Shown here piece after piece: positions 16,079-35,689 of a DNA stretch of 64,000 bases. This DNA is from Nitrospirales bacterium (GTDB taxonomy: Bacteria > Nitrospirota > Nitrospiria > Nitrospirales > UBA8639), in the NCBI GenBank assembly GCA_029261355.1, contig JAJDBM010000040.1:1-64000 (forward strand), read 5' to 3'. Each line of letters opens with the position of its first letter. The stretch's first letter is position 1. The translations under genes and the position numbers were made by a program. A model generated the notes under the pieces. That model ran no database searches. It saw only the letters and a program-made list of their open reading frames with translations, and was not told where the DNA came from.

Positions 16079-16939
16079 TTACTGAGCACCAGCTTCAGCT
16101 AAACCCAAGAGCGCGTTCGCGATATTCGTGAGTCTGACATCTAAATTTCCAGGATCTTGATCCTGTTGCAAATTATGTTTTTTCGCTAAGAATCGTGGAT
16201 CATTAAATGCAATAAACACTTCATGTGCACGGTTTTCAAACACCAAAAATTTTTGAGGCAAATCGATTCCTATTTCCTGACTGTTTTGCATAAGAGGTGT
16301 GCCAACATTTGGGTTTCCAAAGATAATCAGCTGGATGTCTCGACGCTTCCTTGCGGATCGATGAGTTCTCTCAAGAAAATTCACCACAGCTGGAATTCGA
16401 AATCCACGTTCCTTGAGGATGACAAGCAGTCTCTCAACTGTTTGCTCAACGGACTGACTGCTTTTCACAAGATTGACCCCATTATCGAGTCTGCCGAACT
16501 GCGATAACCGATGATCGAATTTCGCTATCAGAAGATCCCTAACAGGGACATCATGCCTATCTAGAATGTAACCAGGAGGGTTATAACGAAACTGAATATC
16601 CCCATTCTCATCTTCAAAAACAAGATATTTATGAGGAAGATCAAGCGCGGCTTCCTGGCTGCGTCGAATCAACGTCTTATCTAATCGAAATTGGCGAAAA
16701 AGAATCACCTGCGTCGGCCGCAGCTCGAGATTTACACTTGCGGCTCCCGCCTGATGGTCAATCGTAGCAATGATTTCAAACCCCTGATTTTCGAGTGTGG
16801 TTCTGATGAAGTCTACCCCCTCTGCAACTGTAGAGACAGTTTCAAACGACTGACTGAGGAACCCTTGGTGTTCACCGTGAGCAGAAGCCGTTGTGAACAG
16901 GAAAAGGCTAACCCAAAAAGTAATCAGCATGACACGCAT
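16079..16939 (-). CDS. Exported protein with two tandem DUF302 domains
   Basis: ATG 16939 has AAGGAG 8 bases upstream. The 286-residue protein starts with a signal peptide (MRVMLITFWVSLFLFTTASA). Two DUF302 units follow: GFEIIATIDHQAGAASVNLE to YILDRHDV (about 50-150) and GFRIPAVVNFLERTHRSA to FLAKKHNL (about 180-265), each with the family's Q/A-ALDLPHKYLVFED or GIDLPQKFLVFEN strand. DUF302 proteins are small periplasmic or cytoplasmic proteins of unknown role, often in sulfur- and redox-active organisms. The tandem form is less common than single-domain members. The gene is isolated. Confidence 0.82.
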   Translation of the reverse strand: MRVMLITFWVSLFLFTTASAHGEHQGFLSQSFETVSTVAEGVDFIRTTLENQGFEIIATIDHQAGAASVNLELRPTQVILFRQFRLDKTLIRRSQEAALDLPHKYLVFEDENGDIQFRYNPPGYILDRHDVPVRDLLIAKFDHRLSQFGRLDNGVNLVKSSQSVEQTVERLLVILKERGFRIPAVVNFLERTHRSARKRRDIQLIIFGNPNVGTPLMQNSQEIGIDLPQKFLVFENRAHEVFIAFNDPRFLAKKHNLQQDQDPGNLDVRLTNIANALLGLAEAGAQ

Positions 16940-17364: not shown

Positions 17365-20300
17365 ATGAACTCTTCGACACACTCCCGGACGCGATGGCTT
17401 CCTTACATAGCCATCACAATTTGCAGCCTCTTTGCCTCAACACCGACAACTCTTGCACAAACCTGGGAAACCGGATCAAATCACCAAGGAGAGAAGCGCT
17501 ACGTCCTCCCATCATATCCAGTAGTATTTGTCGCAGCACGAATTGTTGAGGAACAGAGTGGAAGCGGCCTAGATGGGAAATACCACATTGGCACGGATGT
17601 CCTGTCAGCCAATAATCCAGACCGCGATAATCATTTATGGATCGTGTTGCCGTCAGGCCATGTGAAAAAGCTTTTCCCTTTACCTCAACATGAACAGGAT
17701 GATCTGATCGATACACCGAGGGGTCAGCTCGACAAAGGGTCGGTGGTGGAGCCCAATGTGTCAGAAGACGGGACAAAGATATATTTCTCCTACTTTCACG
17801 ACACCACCTTTGAGTCAAGCTTTAGTTACAGTGTGCATAAGCTCCCGCTTCAAGGCGCTGATCTCTACATGATGGACCTCACCGCTCTCTTGTCGAATGA
17901 GAATGAAGATCCCGCAAACCTCCCCGTCTCTCGTCTCACCTTCAGAGAATATGATGCGCAAGGAAAACAAACTGATGAAGATAAATACACCAATGCCATG
18001 AATCAAACCTTGGCAAACAACACGGGCCCCAATGACTGGGGTACGGTGTATATGCATGCAGTGGAAATGCGAACGGCCACGGGCCTCCACCTCGTCTATG
18101 CCAGTGACGAGCGCCGAGTAAAGAATTCCAATAAAGCCATGGCCCTCGGCCATGCCAATCACAATTTCAATTTACATATCGCAGACTTTTCTTCTGACGG
18201 GAGTCTCAAGAATCCACGACAATTTCAGTACTACACCACAACCTCGGTGTTGAGCCCATCGCCACTCCGCAATGGCATCGCCTTCTCCTATCAATCTTCT
18301 ACCGCTGCGGCGCGGAATTGGCATATTCAAGGTAGTAATTCAGCGGGACGATGGTACCCGATGATTGGATATGGAACCAATCCTGAGCTCTTCCATTTAG
18401 GCAGCTTCTGTCAAAAAACCAAAGGCTCAAACCCTGGCGACTATTATGTGGTTACTCGTTACTACAATGCGAACAACGAAGGGTTTGGGGCACTCTGGGC
18501 GCAAAACCTTTCGCAAGTTGGATTGAACACGTATGACAAAAATACATCGTGGGGAATACTCCCACAGCAAGTCGGCTCGTATAAGCTCACCAACGGGGTG
18601 AACTCCAATGATTATCCCTCTTCGAAAGTTGGCGGACAATATATTGGAAAAATGACCAGTCCTCGATGCGGACATCCAAATGAATTGTTCATGGCCTATA
18701 GTCCGACCAGTGCCAACGGTCGCTTGACCGATGATGATGGCAATAAAGATATCTATCATTCCTATATCGCCTATCGTCCAAATCTCGACCCGTTTCACCC
18801 ACTTGATCCTGTTGATGTGGATCTAGAGAAGGGACTACGTATTGTTGTAGACGACAGCTCCAATCAATACACATTAGTCTGGCCCGTTCCCATTCTTCAT
18901 TGGCAAGCTCGAACAGGTGATGCACAACAACAGTCATCGCCTTCGCACATTGATCCAGCCACGACGATTCAAGCAGGTCTCCCCCATGCGCAAGTGGGCA
19001 CATCGGCCCTCTACAATACTGACCGTAAGCCATTCGATTGCTGGCTTGGTTCAGGTGGACAACACCCCTACAGCCCCAATAAAGCCTACACCAACGTCAA
19101 TCAAGAAAATGACTTGGTCATCAACAATACCGATGGCTTGACCTACGTCCAAAATCAAAGTGACTTTTGTGAACCCTTAAGTCCAGACCATGTTCTCGGT
19201 ATCGCGATCAACTTGACCAGTAATAAGACCAATATGTCAGCCGGCTTTAAACCTGGCTATCACACCGACGGCAACGGGCAAAAAGAAGCGGCACGCCTGC
19301 TCGGAGTCTATGATGTTCGGCAACAGGCCGATCAATCCTTTCAGGCCGTCATTCCAGCCAACGAGCCTTTTGAGTTTCACTTACTCGATAAGAAATATGG
19401 TCTACGCCTCACCGATGTTCGCAGCTGGCATAGCCTCCATCCTCGTGAAACACGAACGGATTGCGGAGGCTGCCATCAACATGAGCCTGGAAAAGCCATT
19501 TCCTTCAAAGGGACAATCGCCGATCGACAGCCACCGTTGGATATGGTCAATACAACGATGCATGTGACCTATAACAAACAATGCGGCCCAGTCGTTCAAA
19601 CAGCCAATCGACCCACGAAAAAAATCCCCGAATGGAAAGCCAATATTTGGCCGCAATTCGATCAATATTGCAGTGCTTGTCATGACACCAATCAATCAAG
19701 TGACACAGCCGCCCTTCAAGCCCTGAGTTATACCGATGAAGGTGATGCCTATAACAAATTGAAGTCGCGAAATTATGCCAATAGCAAGGTAGGGGCATTA
19801 GGCAGCTCCGCATTTTGGGCTGCCCGAGGAGAACGAACAGACGGACGTGATAATTCCTTAAGCAAGTATCAACCAGATTATGCGAATCAGGTCTGGGGGT
19901 ATCAGTTCAGTGCAATCCATGCAACCGAACCAGCACTCTGTGACCAGAACAGCAATCCGATGGCCAAATGGGTATACAAGCTCGGACAATGGATTGATAA
20001 CCACATGCCACGAGATACGGATGACCCCTATGGCTTCAACCATGACTGGTATCACCCAACGGTCGATCTAGCCATTACGTCAGCCACCTGCTCAGCCGAT
20101 CAATTTCGGGTAGGATATTGGGATGATTTCGGTGGAATTGCAAAGCTGCAAGTCCTGGTGAATGACCTGGAAGTGGCCACCTTCACGAATAAACGAAACG
20201 GATCACTCCAAGGTCCGTTGGCAGGACTCGGCTCCAACGATTCCATCACCGTCATCGCGACCGACTTCGCTGACAATCGACAGATCTACAAAAAAAGCGT

Positions 20301-20391
20301 CAGCGAACTCATCAGCGATTGCCAGGGACCAAACGTGCAGCCAATTCCCAAGTCAATCAAGACGACGCGCATTCTCCAAGGTGCTCGCTAA
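17365..20391 (+). CDS. Exported dihaem c-type cytochrome with propeller domain, hydrazine synthase alpha-like
   Basis: ATG 17365 follows GGAGG and encodes 1008 residues with a signal peptide (YIAITICSLFASTPTTLA). The N-terminal 560 residues have strand-rich repeats of propeller type (PNVSEDGTKIYFSYF, GADLYMMDL, SPSPLRNGIAFSYQ). Then RLLGVYDVRQQADQSFQAV, a LLDKKYG strand and RSWHSLHPRETRTDCGGCHQ, with CGGCH at residues 700-704, closely follow the pattern of HZS-alpha-like proteins; a second haem motif, CSACH, is at 769-773. The C-terminus has an Ig-like segment. It should be periplasmic with two covalently bound haems. Homologues are widespread, so this does not imply anammox, and no beta/gamma partners are nearby. 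The real reaction is unknown. Confidence 0.68.
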   Translation: MNSSTHSRTRWLPYIAITICSLFASTPTTLAQTWETGSNHQGEKRYVLPSYPVVFVAARIVEEQSGSGLDGKYHIGTDVLSANNPDRDNHLWIVLPSGHVKKLFPLPQHEQDDLIDTPRGQLDKGSVVEPNVSEDGTKIYFSYFHDTTFESSFSYSVHKLPLQGADLYMMDLTALLSNENEDPANLPVSRLTFREYDAQGKQTDEDKYTNAMNQTLANNTGPNDWGTVYMHAVEMRTATGLHLVYASDERRVKNSNKAMALGHANHNFNLHIADFSSDGSLKNPRQFQYYTTTSVLSPSPLRNGIAFSYQSSTAAARNWHIQGSNSAGRWYPMIGYGTNPELFHLGSFCQKTKGSNPGDYYVVTRYYNANNEGFGALWAQNLSQVGLNTYDKNTSWGILPQQVGSYKLTNGVNSNDYPSSKVGGQYIGKMTSPRCGHPNELFMAYSPTSANGRLTDDDGNKDIYHSYIAYRPNLDPFHPLDPVDVDLEKGLRIVVDDSSNQYTLVWPVPILHWQARTGDAQQQSSPSHIDPATTIQAGLPHAQVGTSALYNTDRKPFDCWLGSGGQHPYSPNKAYTNVNQENDLVINNTDGLTYVQNQSDFCEPLSPDHVLGIAINLTSNKTNMSAGFKPGYHTDGNGQKEAARLLGVYDVRQQADQSFQAVIPANEPFEFHLLDKKYGLRLTDVRSWHSLHPRETRTDCGGCHQHEPGKAISFKGTIADRQPPLDMVNTTMHVTYNKQCGPVVQTANRPTKKIPEWKANIWPQFDQYCSACHDTNQSSDTAALQALSYTDEGDAYNKLKSRNYANSKVGALGSSAFWAARGERTDGRDNSLSKYQPDYANQVWGYQFSAIHATEPALCDQNSNPMAKWVYKLGQWIDNHMPRDTDDPYGFNHDWYHPTVDLAITSATCSADQFRVGYWDDFGGIAKLQVLVNDLEVATFTNKRNGSLQGPLAGLGSNDSITVIATDFADNRQIYKKSVSELISDCQGPNVQPIPKSIKTTRILQGAR

Positions 20392-20874: not shown

Positions 20875-21621
20875 TTAGGCTACATGACGATTCCGCCATC
20901 GCCATCCGACTAGACCCACCAAACCTGATCCTAGCAAGAATATCGTAGAAGGCTCGGGAACAGGGTTGACTGCTACATTATCGATAAGCAAGGCAGTATC
21001 ATCACCATCTGGCTCCGGGCCTACAAGATCTACAGCTCCGAAACCGAGCGTATGCGTGCCGGAATTTTGTATAGAAATGCTCCCGGACCGCCATCCTGAT
21101 TCATAAAAAAAAGAGATACCAGATGGTTCGTCAAAAGGACCTGGCGGATTTGGCGGGAGTAAATCTGAAAACACATTTGCAAGGACTGTAACCTCCCCAT
21201 TAAATGACAAAAACGCCAGATCATCATTGCCGGTATCTGTAGGGGTTTCTTGTGTGAGGTAACGCCAATTAAATGTCACAAGATCTCCAGCCGAAGCTGT
21301 AAATGTCTGAGTTATTACTGTCCCACGAGCAACGACCTTCCCAAATGCAGTCTCCAGCGTCCCCGTTGGCACGCCCAATAACTTTTCTAATCCTCTCCCT
21401 TTATTTCGAAATTCTCCTGTCGTACCAATAAGAGCAACAAATTGCCCTTCTGTTGGTTGAAGCCCTTCCAATGCTGCGAAGGGTGGCCCTACGGCCACTC
21501 CTCTGGAAAGAGTATTCCAAGCAGTGAAATCACCAGTTTCAAAGCCACCGTTACTAATAGCCCAAACTTGGCTAGTAGATCCTACAATGAAAATCCCCAG
21601 AAATAGCAGAAAACGAATCAT
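20875..21621 (-). CDS. PEP-CTERM sorting domain protein (exported)
   Basis: The 248-residue protein has a signal peptide (MIRFLLFLGIFIVGSTSQVWA), a jelly-roll-like body (NGGFETGDFTAWNTLSRG, FNWRYLTQETP) and a C-terminal VPEPSTIFLLGSGLVGLVGW followed by RWRNRHVA, a textbook PEP-CTERM signal. Such proteins are cleaved by an exosortase and sent to the outer surface, often with exopolysaccharide. ATG 21621 has GGAGG upstream. The gene is monocistronic, ending at a strong terminator. No exosortase gene is in the window. Confidence 0.9.
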   Translation of the reverse strand: MIRFLLFLGIFIVGSTSQVWAISNGGFETGDFTAWNTLSRGVAVGPPFAALEGLQPTEGQFVALIGTTGEFRNKGRGLEKLLGVPTGTLETAFGKVVARGTVITQTFTASAGDLVTFNWRYLTQETPTDTGNDDLAFLSFNGEVTVLANVFSDLLPPNPPGPFDEPSGISFFYESGWRSGSISIQNSGTHTLGFGAVDLVGPEPDGDDTALLIDNVAVNPVPEPSTIFLLGSGLVGLVGWRWRNRHVA

Positions 21622-28031: not shown

Positions 28032-28718
28032 TTAATCATTCCGTTTACGCCGCCAGATCAGTAACCCTATTGTACCAGTGGCCATCAGCAACATGGCTGA
28101 TGGCGCTGGCACGGCGGCCACATCCCCGGATCGCACGGCCCAGGCGAAGTTGACGTTGCCCTTGTTGTCCTGGGTCTGGTTACCATTGCCGAAGTTGAAG
28201 ATCCCCGCGTTAGCCCCAAACTCCGTGCTACTCCAATAGCTGGGAAACCTGATGTTACGGAACAACTCCTGGTTATCGATTTCTTCTTCTGTACGCCCCG
28301 ATTGAGTGGTCACAGGTTGATTCCGTCTGCCGCCCAGCTCGTCATAAAACAAATGTCCCATCTCACTGCCCGTGCATTCAAATTCTAGCCCGCCTTGTGG
28401 TGCACCACAGGGCCCACTCCCGTCCTGGTTAAACGCGCTCGGCAGCCGCCAGTCAGTGTAGCCGCCCACCGTCAAGTTCGCCGCAAAATCCACTGCAGTT
28501 TGCCATGTCGACGAGCCACCTGGAATGACTCCGGAGGTTTGCGCAAAATTCGCATCACCCAACCAGGTAATATCACGGTCCTCATCGTAAATTAAATTAA
28601 CCGTCCCGCCAAACCCGTTATTAAATGCTCCTCGGTCAATCAACGCCGCCTCGGTCACCGAGGCCAAACCCAGCAATAAGAGACCAACTCCCAGCACACT
28701 GATCGTTTTCTTACACAT
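28032..28718 (-). CDS. Exported DUF1566 (Lcl-like) protein with PEP-CTERM-like tail
   Basis: The 228-residue protein has a signal peptide (TISVLGVGLLLLGLASVTEA), a DUF1566 body (ITWLGDANFAQTSG, AANLTVGGYTDWRLPSAF, YWSSTEFG, FAWAVRSGD) and a C-terminal VPAPSAMLLMATGTIGLLIW followed by RRKRND. The tail has the anatomy of a PEP-CTERM signal in its VPxPS variant form. A GGGAGAGGGG purine tract precedes ATG 28718. It should be secreted and exosortase-processed together with the similar protein at 20875-21621. Function unknown. Confidence 0.85.
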   Translation of the reverse strand: MCKKTISVLGVGLLLLGLASVTEAALIDRGAFNNGFGGTVNLIYDEDRDITWLGDANFAQTSGVIPGGSSTWQTAVDFAANLTVGGYTDWRLPSAFNQDGSGPCGAPQGGLEFECTGSEMGHLFYDELGGRRNQPVTTQSGRTEEEIDNQELFRNIRFPSYWSSTEFGANAGIFNFGNGNQTQDNKGNVNFAWAVRSGDVAAVPAPSAMLLMATGTIGLLIWRRKRND

Positions 28719-32152: not shown

Positions 32153-35100
32153 GTGAAAATTGAACGTCGATTCACACTCACAGGAGAAAGCCCCTACCAG
32201 ACGATCCCGTTTTCCACTCGATCATCAGAAATTCGAAACCCAGACGGATCACTGGTCTTTCAACAAAGCAATATTGAAGCCCCCAGTCATTGGACACAAC
32301 TCGCAATAGATATTCTGGCTCAGAAGTATTTTCGAAAAGCTGGGATCCCGCAAGTCGATGACATGGGAAGTCCCATCTATGATGAAAATGGCGACCCTGT
32401 CTTAGGTGGTGAACGGGATGCCAAGCAAGTATTCCATCGTCTTGCTGGCTGTTGGACACAGTGGGGTGAAACGCACCAGTATTTTGACTCGTCGGAAGAT
32501 GCCAAAGCATTCTATGATGAAATTTGCTTCATGTTGGCCCAACAAATGGCCGCTCCCAATTCCCCTCAATGGTTTAATACAGGCTTACACTTTGCCTATG
32601 GGCTCTCTGGGCCTGCTCAAGGCCACTATTACGTTGATCCCAACACCCAGCGCGTCAAACAGGCCAAAGATGCCTACGAACGCCCACAAGTGCATGCTTG
32701 CTTCATCCAATCGATTTCCGATGATTTAGTCAATGATGGCGGCATCATGGACCTTTGGGTTCGCGAAGCCCGCCTCTTTAAATATGGCTCTGGTACAGGC
32801 ACGAACTTTTCAAAGTTACGTGGCGATGGTGAGCCGCTTTCCGGTGGCGGTCGTTCATCTGGACTCATGTCGTTCCTAAAAATTGGAGATCGAGCCGCAG
32901 GAGCCATCAAGTCAGGTGGAACCACCCGACGTGCCGCTAAAATGGTGTGCTTAGACCTCGATCACCCAGATATTGAGGAATTTATCGACTGGAAAGTGAT
33001 TGAAGAACAAAAAGTTGCCGCCATGGTGACTGGGTCAAAAATCTCGGCCCAACGATTGAACGCCATTCTCTCAGCCTGCCACATCCCTCAAACAGACGGT
33101 TCGTCTAAGGTCGAGACAGACGTCAAGATGAACCCGACTCTGAAAGAGGCGATTCAAGCTGCGAGGCAAGCGTCAGTGCATGAAGCCTACATTCAGCGCA
33201 TGTTTGCCTATGCCAAAGAAGGATTCACGCACTTCGTCTTCCATGAATATGACACCAATTGGGACAGCAAAGCCTATCAGACCGTGTCTGGACAAAACTC
33301 AAATAATAGCATTCGTATTCCCAATGGCTTCTTTGAAGCCATGACTCAAGATGGGGATTGGCACCTCACGCGTCGAACTGATGGGGAACCGATCAAGACC
33401 ATCAAGGCCCGTGAACTGTGGAATCGCATTGCGTGGGCCGCCTGGACCTGTGCTGATCCTGGCATCCAATATGATACGACGATTAACGAATGGCATACCT
33501 GCCCGCAGGACGGCCGAATTAATGCTTCCAATCCTTGCAGTGAATACATGTTTTTAGATGACACCGCCTGTAATTTGGCCTCACTCAACCTGGGCCGCTT
33601 TACCTCCCCTGAGGAAGATTTTGATTTGGACGGCTTCCGCCATGGTGTGCGTCTATGGACCATTGTCCTCGAAATCAGCGTCCTGATGGCAGGGTTTCCG
33701 AGTCGTGCGATTGCAGAAAGAAGTTTCACCTATCGCACACTTGGACTTGGCTATGCGAATCTCGGATCAGTCCTGATGCGCCTGGGCATTCCCTATGACT
33801 CACCCAAGGCCTTAGCCATATGCGGAGCAATCACAGCCATCATGACTGGGGAGTCCTACGCCACCTCTTCAGAAATGGCTGCCGAACTGGGTCCCTTTAA
33901 AGCGTATCCTCGAAACCGAACCTCGATGCTCAAAGTCATCAGAAATCATCGACGTGCCGCCTATGACGCACAAAAGAATGAATATGAAGAACTGACAATT
34001 TACCCACAAGGCATTAATGCTGACCACTGTCCTACGGATTTACTCCAAGCGGCTCGCCAAGCATGGGACCGTGCTCTCAATCTTGGGGAAAAGCATGGGT
34101 TTCGAAACGCACAATCGACCGTCATTGCCCCCACTGGCACCATTGGGCTAGTGATGGACTGTGACACAACTGGCATCGAACCAGACTTTGCCATTGTAAA
34201 GTTTAAAAAGTTGGCCGGTGGCGGATACTTCAAAATCGTTAATCAAAGTCTACCGCCTGCTCTCCAGACTCTTGGATACTCCCAATCAGACATTCAAGAT
34301 ATTATTACCTATGTCTCTGGAACTCGAACCTTACAAGGATCTCCCTTCATTAATCACGAAAGTCTGCAAACGAAGGGGTTTGATCGTGCCGCCATTGACC
34401 GACTTGAGACAACCCTCGATGGAGCCTTTGATATTCAATTTGTCTTTAATAAATGGACTCTTGGCGAGGAGTTTTGCCGAGATTCCCTAGGGCTGACAGA
34501 CTCCCAACTTGATGACCCTCACTTCAATATCTTGAAAACCCTTGGATTTACTCAAGAAGAAATTTTAGCCGCAACCGACTATTGCTGTGGCACGATGACT
34601 GTGGAAGGGGCTCCACACCTGAAGTCTGAACATTTACCCGTATTTGATTGTGCCAATCGATGTGGGCGAATTGGACAGCGGTATATCGCGTCCCAGGCCC
34701 ATATTCACATGATGGCCAGCTCCCAACCATTCATCAGCGGTGCCATTAGCAAAACCATCAATATGCCGGCTGACTCTTCGGTCGAACATGTCAAAGACGC
34801 CTATATGATGGGATGGCAATCCATGTTGAAAGCCGTCGCTCTGTATAGAGATGGCTCAAAGCTTAGCCAACCATTGAACACCTCCATCGATGCCGAAGAA
34901 TCCAATGGACAGACCAACCAAATCATGGCAGCGGCACAACAAGCCGCCTCACAAGTGTTAGTCCGATATCTGGCTAAACGTCGCCCACTCCCTGCTCGTC
35001 GAGGTGGGTATACCCAAAAAGCCGTTGTGGGTGGTCACAAAATTTATCTCAGAACCGGTGAATATAAAGACGGCACAATTGGTGAAATTTTTCTAGACAT

Positions 35101-35689
35101 GCATAAAGAAGGTGCTGCATTTCGTAGTCTCATGAACTGTTTTGCGATCTCCATTTCATTGGGATTACAACATGGCGTTCCACTCGAGGAATTTGTCGAC
35201 GCCTTTGTCTTTACTCGATTTGAGCCAAATGGCCCGGTCAAACTCAATGATCACATCAAAATGTCCACGTCGATTATTGACTATATTTTCCGTGAATTAG
35301 CCATTACCTATTTAGACCGGCATGACCTCGAGCAAATTGCCCCAGAAGACTTACGGTCCGATACAGTGCGGAAGGACCCTGACGATGCAGAAGCCTCGCA
35401 AGAGTTTGTCGATCCAAAGGCATTAGCATCAACATCAGTCAGTCCAGGCTTATTCCCCGCAAGACGCCAAGGTCGGAACGGAAGCAGTCAAAATGGAGAA
35501 AGAAATGGTGGGAGCATTGCACATCAGGTTGAAGTCAAACGGGAGACCATGACCTATACGGAAGTGCAAGTCGCAAGACTCAAAGGCTATGAAGGCGATC
35601 CATGCCAAGAATGCAAGCAGTTTAAAATGGTGAGAAATGGTATGTGCTTAAAGTGTGAAAATTGTGGTGCCACGAATGGGTGCTCCTAA
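32153..35689 (+). CDS. nrdJ: Class II (adenosylcobalamin-dependent) ribonucleotide reductase
   Basis: GTG 32153 follows AAAGGAG. The 1178-residue enzyme reduces ribonucleotides to deoxyribonucleotides, using B12 to make the thiyl radical, so it works with or without oxygen. Visible are the redox Cys183 in HACFIQSI, the NPCSE motif at residues 460-464 (radical Cys462), [11 protein letters not shown], and the large C-terminal extension ending in a cluster of seven cysteines (C1151, 1154, 1165, 1168, 1171, 1177 and neighbours in [18 protein letters not shown]), which can reload the active-site disulfide or bind zinc. Length is typical of the long NrdJ group. Control by NrdR is supported by the operator upstream. 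Confidence 0.95.

Follow-up and report, generated by a model that had tools for sequence, protein, structure and literature searches.

The window analysed here comprises 64,000 nucleotides of a contig (JAJDBM010000040.1) from a Nitrospirota genome of 4.63 Mb that is 99% complete. It contains a gene for an exported dihaem protein resembling the alpha subunit of hydrazine synthase (HZS alpha, HzsA), the features of which are collected in Table 1 together with selected neighbours. The two CxxCH motifs, beginning at residues 700 and 769, are exactly 69 residues apart as originally predicted, and both ends of the segment to which that prediction drew attention, from RLLGVYDVRQQADQSFQAV to DCGGCHQ, are present in the reading frame. 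In the AlphaFold2 model described below, residues 12-24, which lie inside the predicted signal peptide, are helical with low pLDDT.

Table 1. Positions in the window of the HZS-alpha-like gene, its features and selected neighbours
Feature	Position	Strand	Remarks
HZS-alpha-like dihaem protein (CDS)	17365..20391	+	1008 aa plus stop, start ATG
Sec-type signal peptide, about residues 1-31 (...TTLA-Q)	17365..17457	+	called by eye from sequence
TolB-like beta-propeller, residues 33-515	17461..18909	+	TolB Z 24 in fold comparison
Invariant His344 of propeller	codon 18394-18396	+	77/77 aligned sequences
PF18582 HZS_alpha middle domain, residues 636-705	19270..19479	+	Pfam E 4.2e-9
Haem I motif CGGCHQH, residues 700-706	19462..19482	+	His706, the second His, does not vary across the family
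Haem II motif CSACH, residues 769-773	19669..19683	+	
Candidate distal haem II ligand His852	codon 19918-19920	+	
Ig-like beta-sandwich, residues 892-992	20038..20340	+	separate fold of residues 892-992
Exported protein with two DUF302 domains	16079-16939	-	divergent from the HZS-alpha-like gene
PEP-CTERM protein	20875-21621	-	
PEP-CTERM protein	28032-28718	-	
Class II (B12-dependent) ribonucleotide reductase	32153-35689	+	with TSCPD domain

The genes flanking the HZS-alpha-like gene comprise one that, from its sequence, we take to be uvrA-like, the divergent DUF302 gene, and genes for a PEP-CTERM protein and a BON-domain protein. Linkage of the DUF302 gene to the HZS-alpha-like family was not seen at other loci. 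Because two PEP-CTERM proteins are encoded in the window, the host genome is expected to encode an exosortase sorting system. A ribonucleotide reductase gene lies further along the window.

Genes for the beta and gamma subunits (HzsB and HzsC) were not found in the window, as had been predicted, and its long open reading frames include no other cytochrome gene. The sole other CxxCH among these frames belongs to a zinc-ribbon protein, which leaves no cytochrome partner nearby. Neighbour clustering across 82 loci gave no conserved partner gene; the largest cluster covered 7 loci, and its representative looks like a low-complexity reading frame. Three CCP_MauG genes were found in the host genome; at 344-398 aa, their products are about as large as ordinary peroxidases. 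The host had been regarded as a putative nitrogen-cycle bacterium. Most genomes of its family encode an NxrA-sized molybdopterin protein scoring 190-200 bits against TIGR03479, but no such protein was found in the host's own genome (G000), where the best TIGR03479 match reached 45 bits. Gene loss or an assembly gap could account for the missing protein. Multi-copy genes of this kind often drop out of assemblies.

Family assignment and predicted fold

A Pfam scan of the protein matched PF18582 with 37.3 bits. As this exceeds the curated cut-off of 26.6 bits, the match is not a chance motif. No other family reached its own cut-off in the scan, PF03150 (CCP_MauG) gave no match up to E 1, and an unrelated cytochrome family, the outcome against which the original prediction was to be held, did not emerge. 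When PDB sequences were searched with the single sequence, no relative was returned; HZS alpha (5c2v_A) was found only with a family profile derived from an alignment of 77 sequences, at E 9.5e-30 and over the propeller and haem domains. Identity to HZS alpha is 15% over the aligned part, and the propeller part of the alignment is weak per residue (19 bits).

The AlphaFold2 model, calculated from the same 77-sequence alignment for the protein without haem, had a pLDDT of 83.7 and a pTM of 0.88. Its top Foldseek match among solved structures was 5c2v HZS alpha (E 6.3e-20). Alignment to 5c2v with VIA-align covered 598 residues at 3.5 A (Z 30.4, model residues 49-895), and the next matches, to TolB, span the propeller only. 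Residues 892-992 folded alone with a pLDDT of 91.9 and matched Ig-, FnIII- and SoxZ-type sandwiches (best Z 8-9.6). Profile, fold and the separate Ig model together support a propeller-haem-haem-Ig architecture, in which haem I belongs to the middle domain and haem II to a cytochrome c domain, and by modelled fold and domain order the protein is a member of the HZS-alpha superfamily. The earlier description as an HZS-alpha-like, exported dihaem protein, with a propeller-type domain ahead of the c-type haems and an Ig-like C-terminus, is thereby upheld. For the present analysis, we defined a dihaem CxxCHxH subfamily by a CxxCHxH haem I motif, a propeller His344, a second CxxCH ~70 residues on, a length of ~1000 aa and an Ig-like C-terminus; the window protein has all of these features.

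Haem sites and conserved residues

In Kuenenia HZS alpha, zinc is bound by His587 of the CxxCH motif and the haem iron by Tyr591; the haem homologous to haem I is five-coordinate and has an open site (PMC12607021). Cys303 serves as zinc co-ligand but is also lacking in Scalinduaceae (PMC12758564), and is thus not strictly diagnostic of HZS alpha. In the profile alignment, CSGCHYGSY of HZS alpha and CGGCHxHxx of the family align without gaps. The column of Tyr591 holds Gln in 44 of the 77 aligned sequences and Pro (P708) in the window protein, which reads CGGCHQHEP and lacks the CxxCHxxxY pattern, having no Tyr at +4. The column of Gly589 is occupied by an invariant His (706). Cys303 is not conserved in the family profile alignment, and an invariant His344 lies ~13 residues beyond its column in the same propeller stretch; note that the alignment is weak there. 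Of the haem axial ligand and zinc site, the conservation of which the original prediction had singled out, Tyr591 and Cys303 are both absent. Judged by these residues, the hydrazine-synthase active site is absent from the window protein.

His344, His704, His706 and His773 are each invariant (77/77), and the first motif reads CxxCHxH in every aligned sequence, at overall identities to the window protein of 18-25% for 70 of the 77. In every CHxH protein examined, the second His is accompanied by His344. In the tri-haem CNGCHSPRRG group of PF18582 proteins, the second His is absent from 7/7 members and His344 from the sole member with an aligned propeller; in the other PF18582 groups the sequences show no second His, and their propellers did not align. 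This joint pattern suggests that His344 and His706 share one site at the interface between the propeller and haem I.

At position 852, Met is found in 45/77 and His in 24/77 aligned sequences, the latter in 7/7 members of the clade to which the window gene belongs. Haem II is probably ligated in bis-His fashion, as in HZS alpha, by His773 and the candidate His852, around which residues 831-860 are modelled with a pLDDT of only 58-69. The same clade is marked by cysteines at positions 349, 435, 559, 602, 740, 859, 909 and 986, which are invariant in 7/7 members, and no Cys is aligned at these positions in any of the other 70 sequences. Eight being an even number, they are consistent with four disulfides, and we infer that they may pair in this way.

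Distribution and phylogeny of homologues

Across 84,980 scanned species genomes, 76 loci were recovered. The best was 81% identical over nearly the full length, the next 60%, and the rest ~21-38% over the best segment. The loci come from Planctomycetota, Acidobacteriota, Verrucomicrobiota, Myxococcota, Xanthomonadales, Nitrosomonas, Thalassotalea, Nitrospirota and others, and full-length homologues are ~1000 aa long with two haem motifs, the first being CxxCHxH. Among 147 related genomes, an orthologue of the window gene was not found. The gene had been called an orphan, which is correct in that it stands alone without a conserved neighbour; contig C58 of the host genome does, however, carry a second PF18582 gene, which is divergent (30% identity over the haem region). 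An orthologue of this second gene is present in one genome of the host's family. The C58 gene (L018, 7048-10053) and the L019 copy in a related genome (7194-10196) both encode HZS-alpha-like dihaem proteins with the motif CGGCHVH. Ahead of the former lies a gene encoding InlB-B repeats and a CBM96 domain, and ahead of the latter lie similar repeat reading frames.

Other members of PF18582 were also noted. Further groups (L004-L010; L013, L014, L141, L142) all lack the second His; the proteins of one, ~815 aa long, carry the motif CNGCHSPRRG and are mostly tri-haem, and those of another are mono-haem with CxSCHG. Lineage expansion is seen in Nitrosomonas marina Nm71, which has five PF18582 genes (L080, L088, L089 and L093 among them), and in Thalassotalea, where copies lie side by side (L095, L096). 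When plasmids were searched with a relative, the matches were weak and to SUMF1-type proteins only.

The 81% relative (L024, JAJDBD010000189.1) is filed in the Nitrospinaceae MAG OFTM44. PolA encoded on its contig is 91% identical to that of G042, a Nitrospirales genome from the same family as the window, and the OFTM44 bin contains another PolA that is Nitrospina-like (47%). Due to these two PolA copies, of which the one on the contig is Nitrospirales-like, the contig is considered a contaminant of the Nitrospinaceae bin, and the idea of horizontal transfer from Nitrospinota was discarded. Relatives at 53-61% identity occur in Bdellovibrionota. The single-copy AlaS on one of the contigs concerned (L115) is 63-71% identical to sister genomes, which confirms its Bdellovibrionota origin, and the sharing of the gene with Bdellovibrionota held up. 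In the maximum-likelihood tree, a phylogeny proposed along with the original prediction, the window gene and six relatives from Nitrospirales and Bdellovibrionota form a clade with support of 100/100 on a very long stem (4.3 changes per site). The HZS alpha branch, at 5.1, is too long for placement within the family tree. Comparison with the nearest homologue gave a dN of 0.11 at saturation of synonymous sites, indicating purifying selection on the protein.

Possible functions and comparison with known systems

Due to the remodelled haem pocket and the missing partner genes, the protein is probably a different redox protein from hydrazine synthase, drawn from a widespread family, and on the residues compared above it is unlikely to synthesize hydrazine. 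The reading that we favour, and consider reasonably probable, is a stand-alone periplasmic oxidoreductase of the HZS-alpha superfamily, secreted and carrying two c-type haems, that has its reaction site at haem I and its relay at haem II, and that acts on a small-molecule substrate without making hydrazine. The substrate would react under the propeller at haem I, which is expected to lie between the propeller and the middle domain, and His706 and His344 may line or metallate this pocket, taking over from the Tyr591/Zn(Cys303) site that HZS has there. Haem II, held by His773 and probably His852, would exchange electrons with a soluble cytochrome of the periplasm, and the four putative disulfides, formed by the eight clade-specific cysteines, would stabilize the exported protein together with the Ig-like domain. 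It is also conceivable, if rather unlikely, that haem I keeps the HZS geometry in a new form, with His704 and His344 binding zinc or another metal and His706 replacing Tyr591 as iron ligand; hydrazine synthase would then be one specialised offshoot of a widespread family of c-haem enzymes coupled to a metal.

The main rival to an oxidoreductase is a protein of pure electron transfer, in which haem I would be six-coordinate (His704 plus the propeller His344) and the two haems would relay electrons, whether at the cell surface or within the periplasm, with no catalysis by the protein itself. The invariance of His344 and its location in the propeller are as such a relay would require, and six-coordination is probable for haem II, through His/His here and His/Met in many relatives. 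The corresponding haem of HZS alpha is five-coordinate and open, however, and an invariant His706 beside the haem, together with a large closed propeller, exceeds the needs of a relay, which we therefore regard as possible but doubtful. Export, the propeller and Ig-like modules and the lack of operon partners would also suit a non-enzymatic envelope or adhesion protein with structural or redox-sensing haems, but the haem motifs and second-sphere His remain invariant across 77 divergent sequences, which suggests functional haem chemistry and makes such a role quite improbable. As to a true hydrazine-forming or hydroxylamine/ammonia-condensing enzyme with distant or unlinked beta/gamma-like partners, fold and domain order are the same as in HZS alpha, but the protein lacks Tyr591 and Cys303, the window lacks partner genes, and the genome yielded no CCP/MauG genes besides the three mentioned above, which fall short of the length of a fused beta-gamma subunit. 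Related HZS-alpha-like proteins were, moreover, judged not to be hydrazine synthases (PMC12758564), and we give an enzyme of this kind hardly any credence.

The oxidoreductase that we favour fits the original prediction of an unstudied redox enzyme insofar as the protein is uncharacterised. The suggested link to nitrogen chemistry is unsupported, because the HZS haem residues and beta/gamma genes are absent and the family is common in bacteria without an evident nitrogen-cycle role (Planctomycetota, Acidobacteriota, Xanthomonadales, Thalassotalea). HZS-alpha-like genes of this type should not be annotated as anammox markers. Hydrazine synthase was long regarded as an enzyme without relatives. 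A large family of stand-alone dihaem proteins that share its fold, found in many phyla including nitrifiers, bears on the origin of the anammox enzyme and on the role of the ancestral haem pocket, a question that the conserved CHxH/His344 pair makes accessible to mutagenesis and spectroscopy.

HzsA of Ca. Kuenenia stuttgartiensis (5c2v/5c2w) and the window protein are alike in being exported and in having a six-bladed propeller, an HZS_alpha middle domain with a c-type haem and a C-terminal domain with a second c-type haem, haem II of the window protein being a candidate for bis-His ligation. Unlike HzsA, the window protein has neither Tyr591 (P708 in its place) nor the zinc ligand Cys303, its gene lies in a window without HzsB/HzsC genes, and it has in addition an invariant His two residues past CxxCH, the invariant propeller His344, an Ig-like domain and eight cysteines. 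TolB is the closest fold to the propeller alone and has no haem domains; Pal or colicin binding as in TolB is not expected here. A wider enzyme family with other substrates has already been proposed (PMC10732223), and more than 600 HZS-alpha-like proteins outside anammox bacteria are reported from a fold search (PMC12758564). Clades I-IV of these homologues (Hagglund et al. 2025, PMC12758564; Suarez et al. 2023, PMC10732223) come from outside anammox bacteria, belong to the same superfamily and, as here, do not conserve key HZS residues. Their genes adjoin a beta-gamma fusion gene and, in clades I-III, also an FG-GAP/CRTAC1 gene, whereas the window gene has no such neighbours. Clades I-III further show a two-residue gap at Ser590/Tyr591, in contrast to the gap-free haem I loop with CHxH of the window protein, and the CHxH/His344 pair is not described in those sections of the PMC12758564 text that we had. 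The HZS-alpha superfamily is thus already known, and the CHxH/His344 subfamily with its remodelled haem site is a new variant within it.
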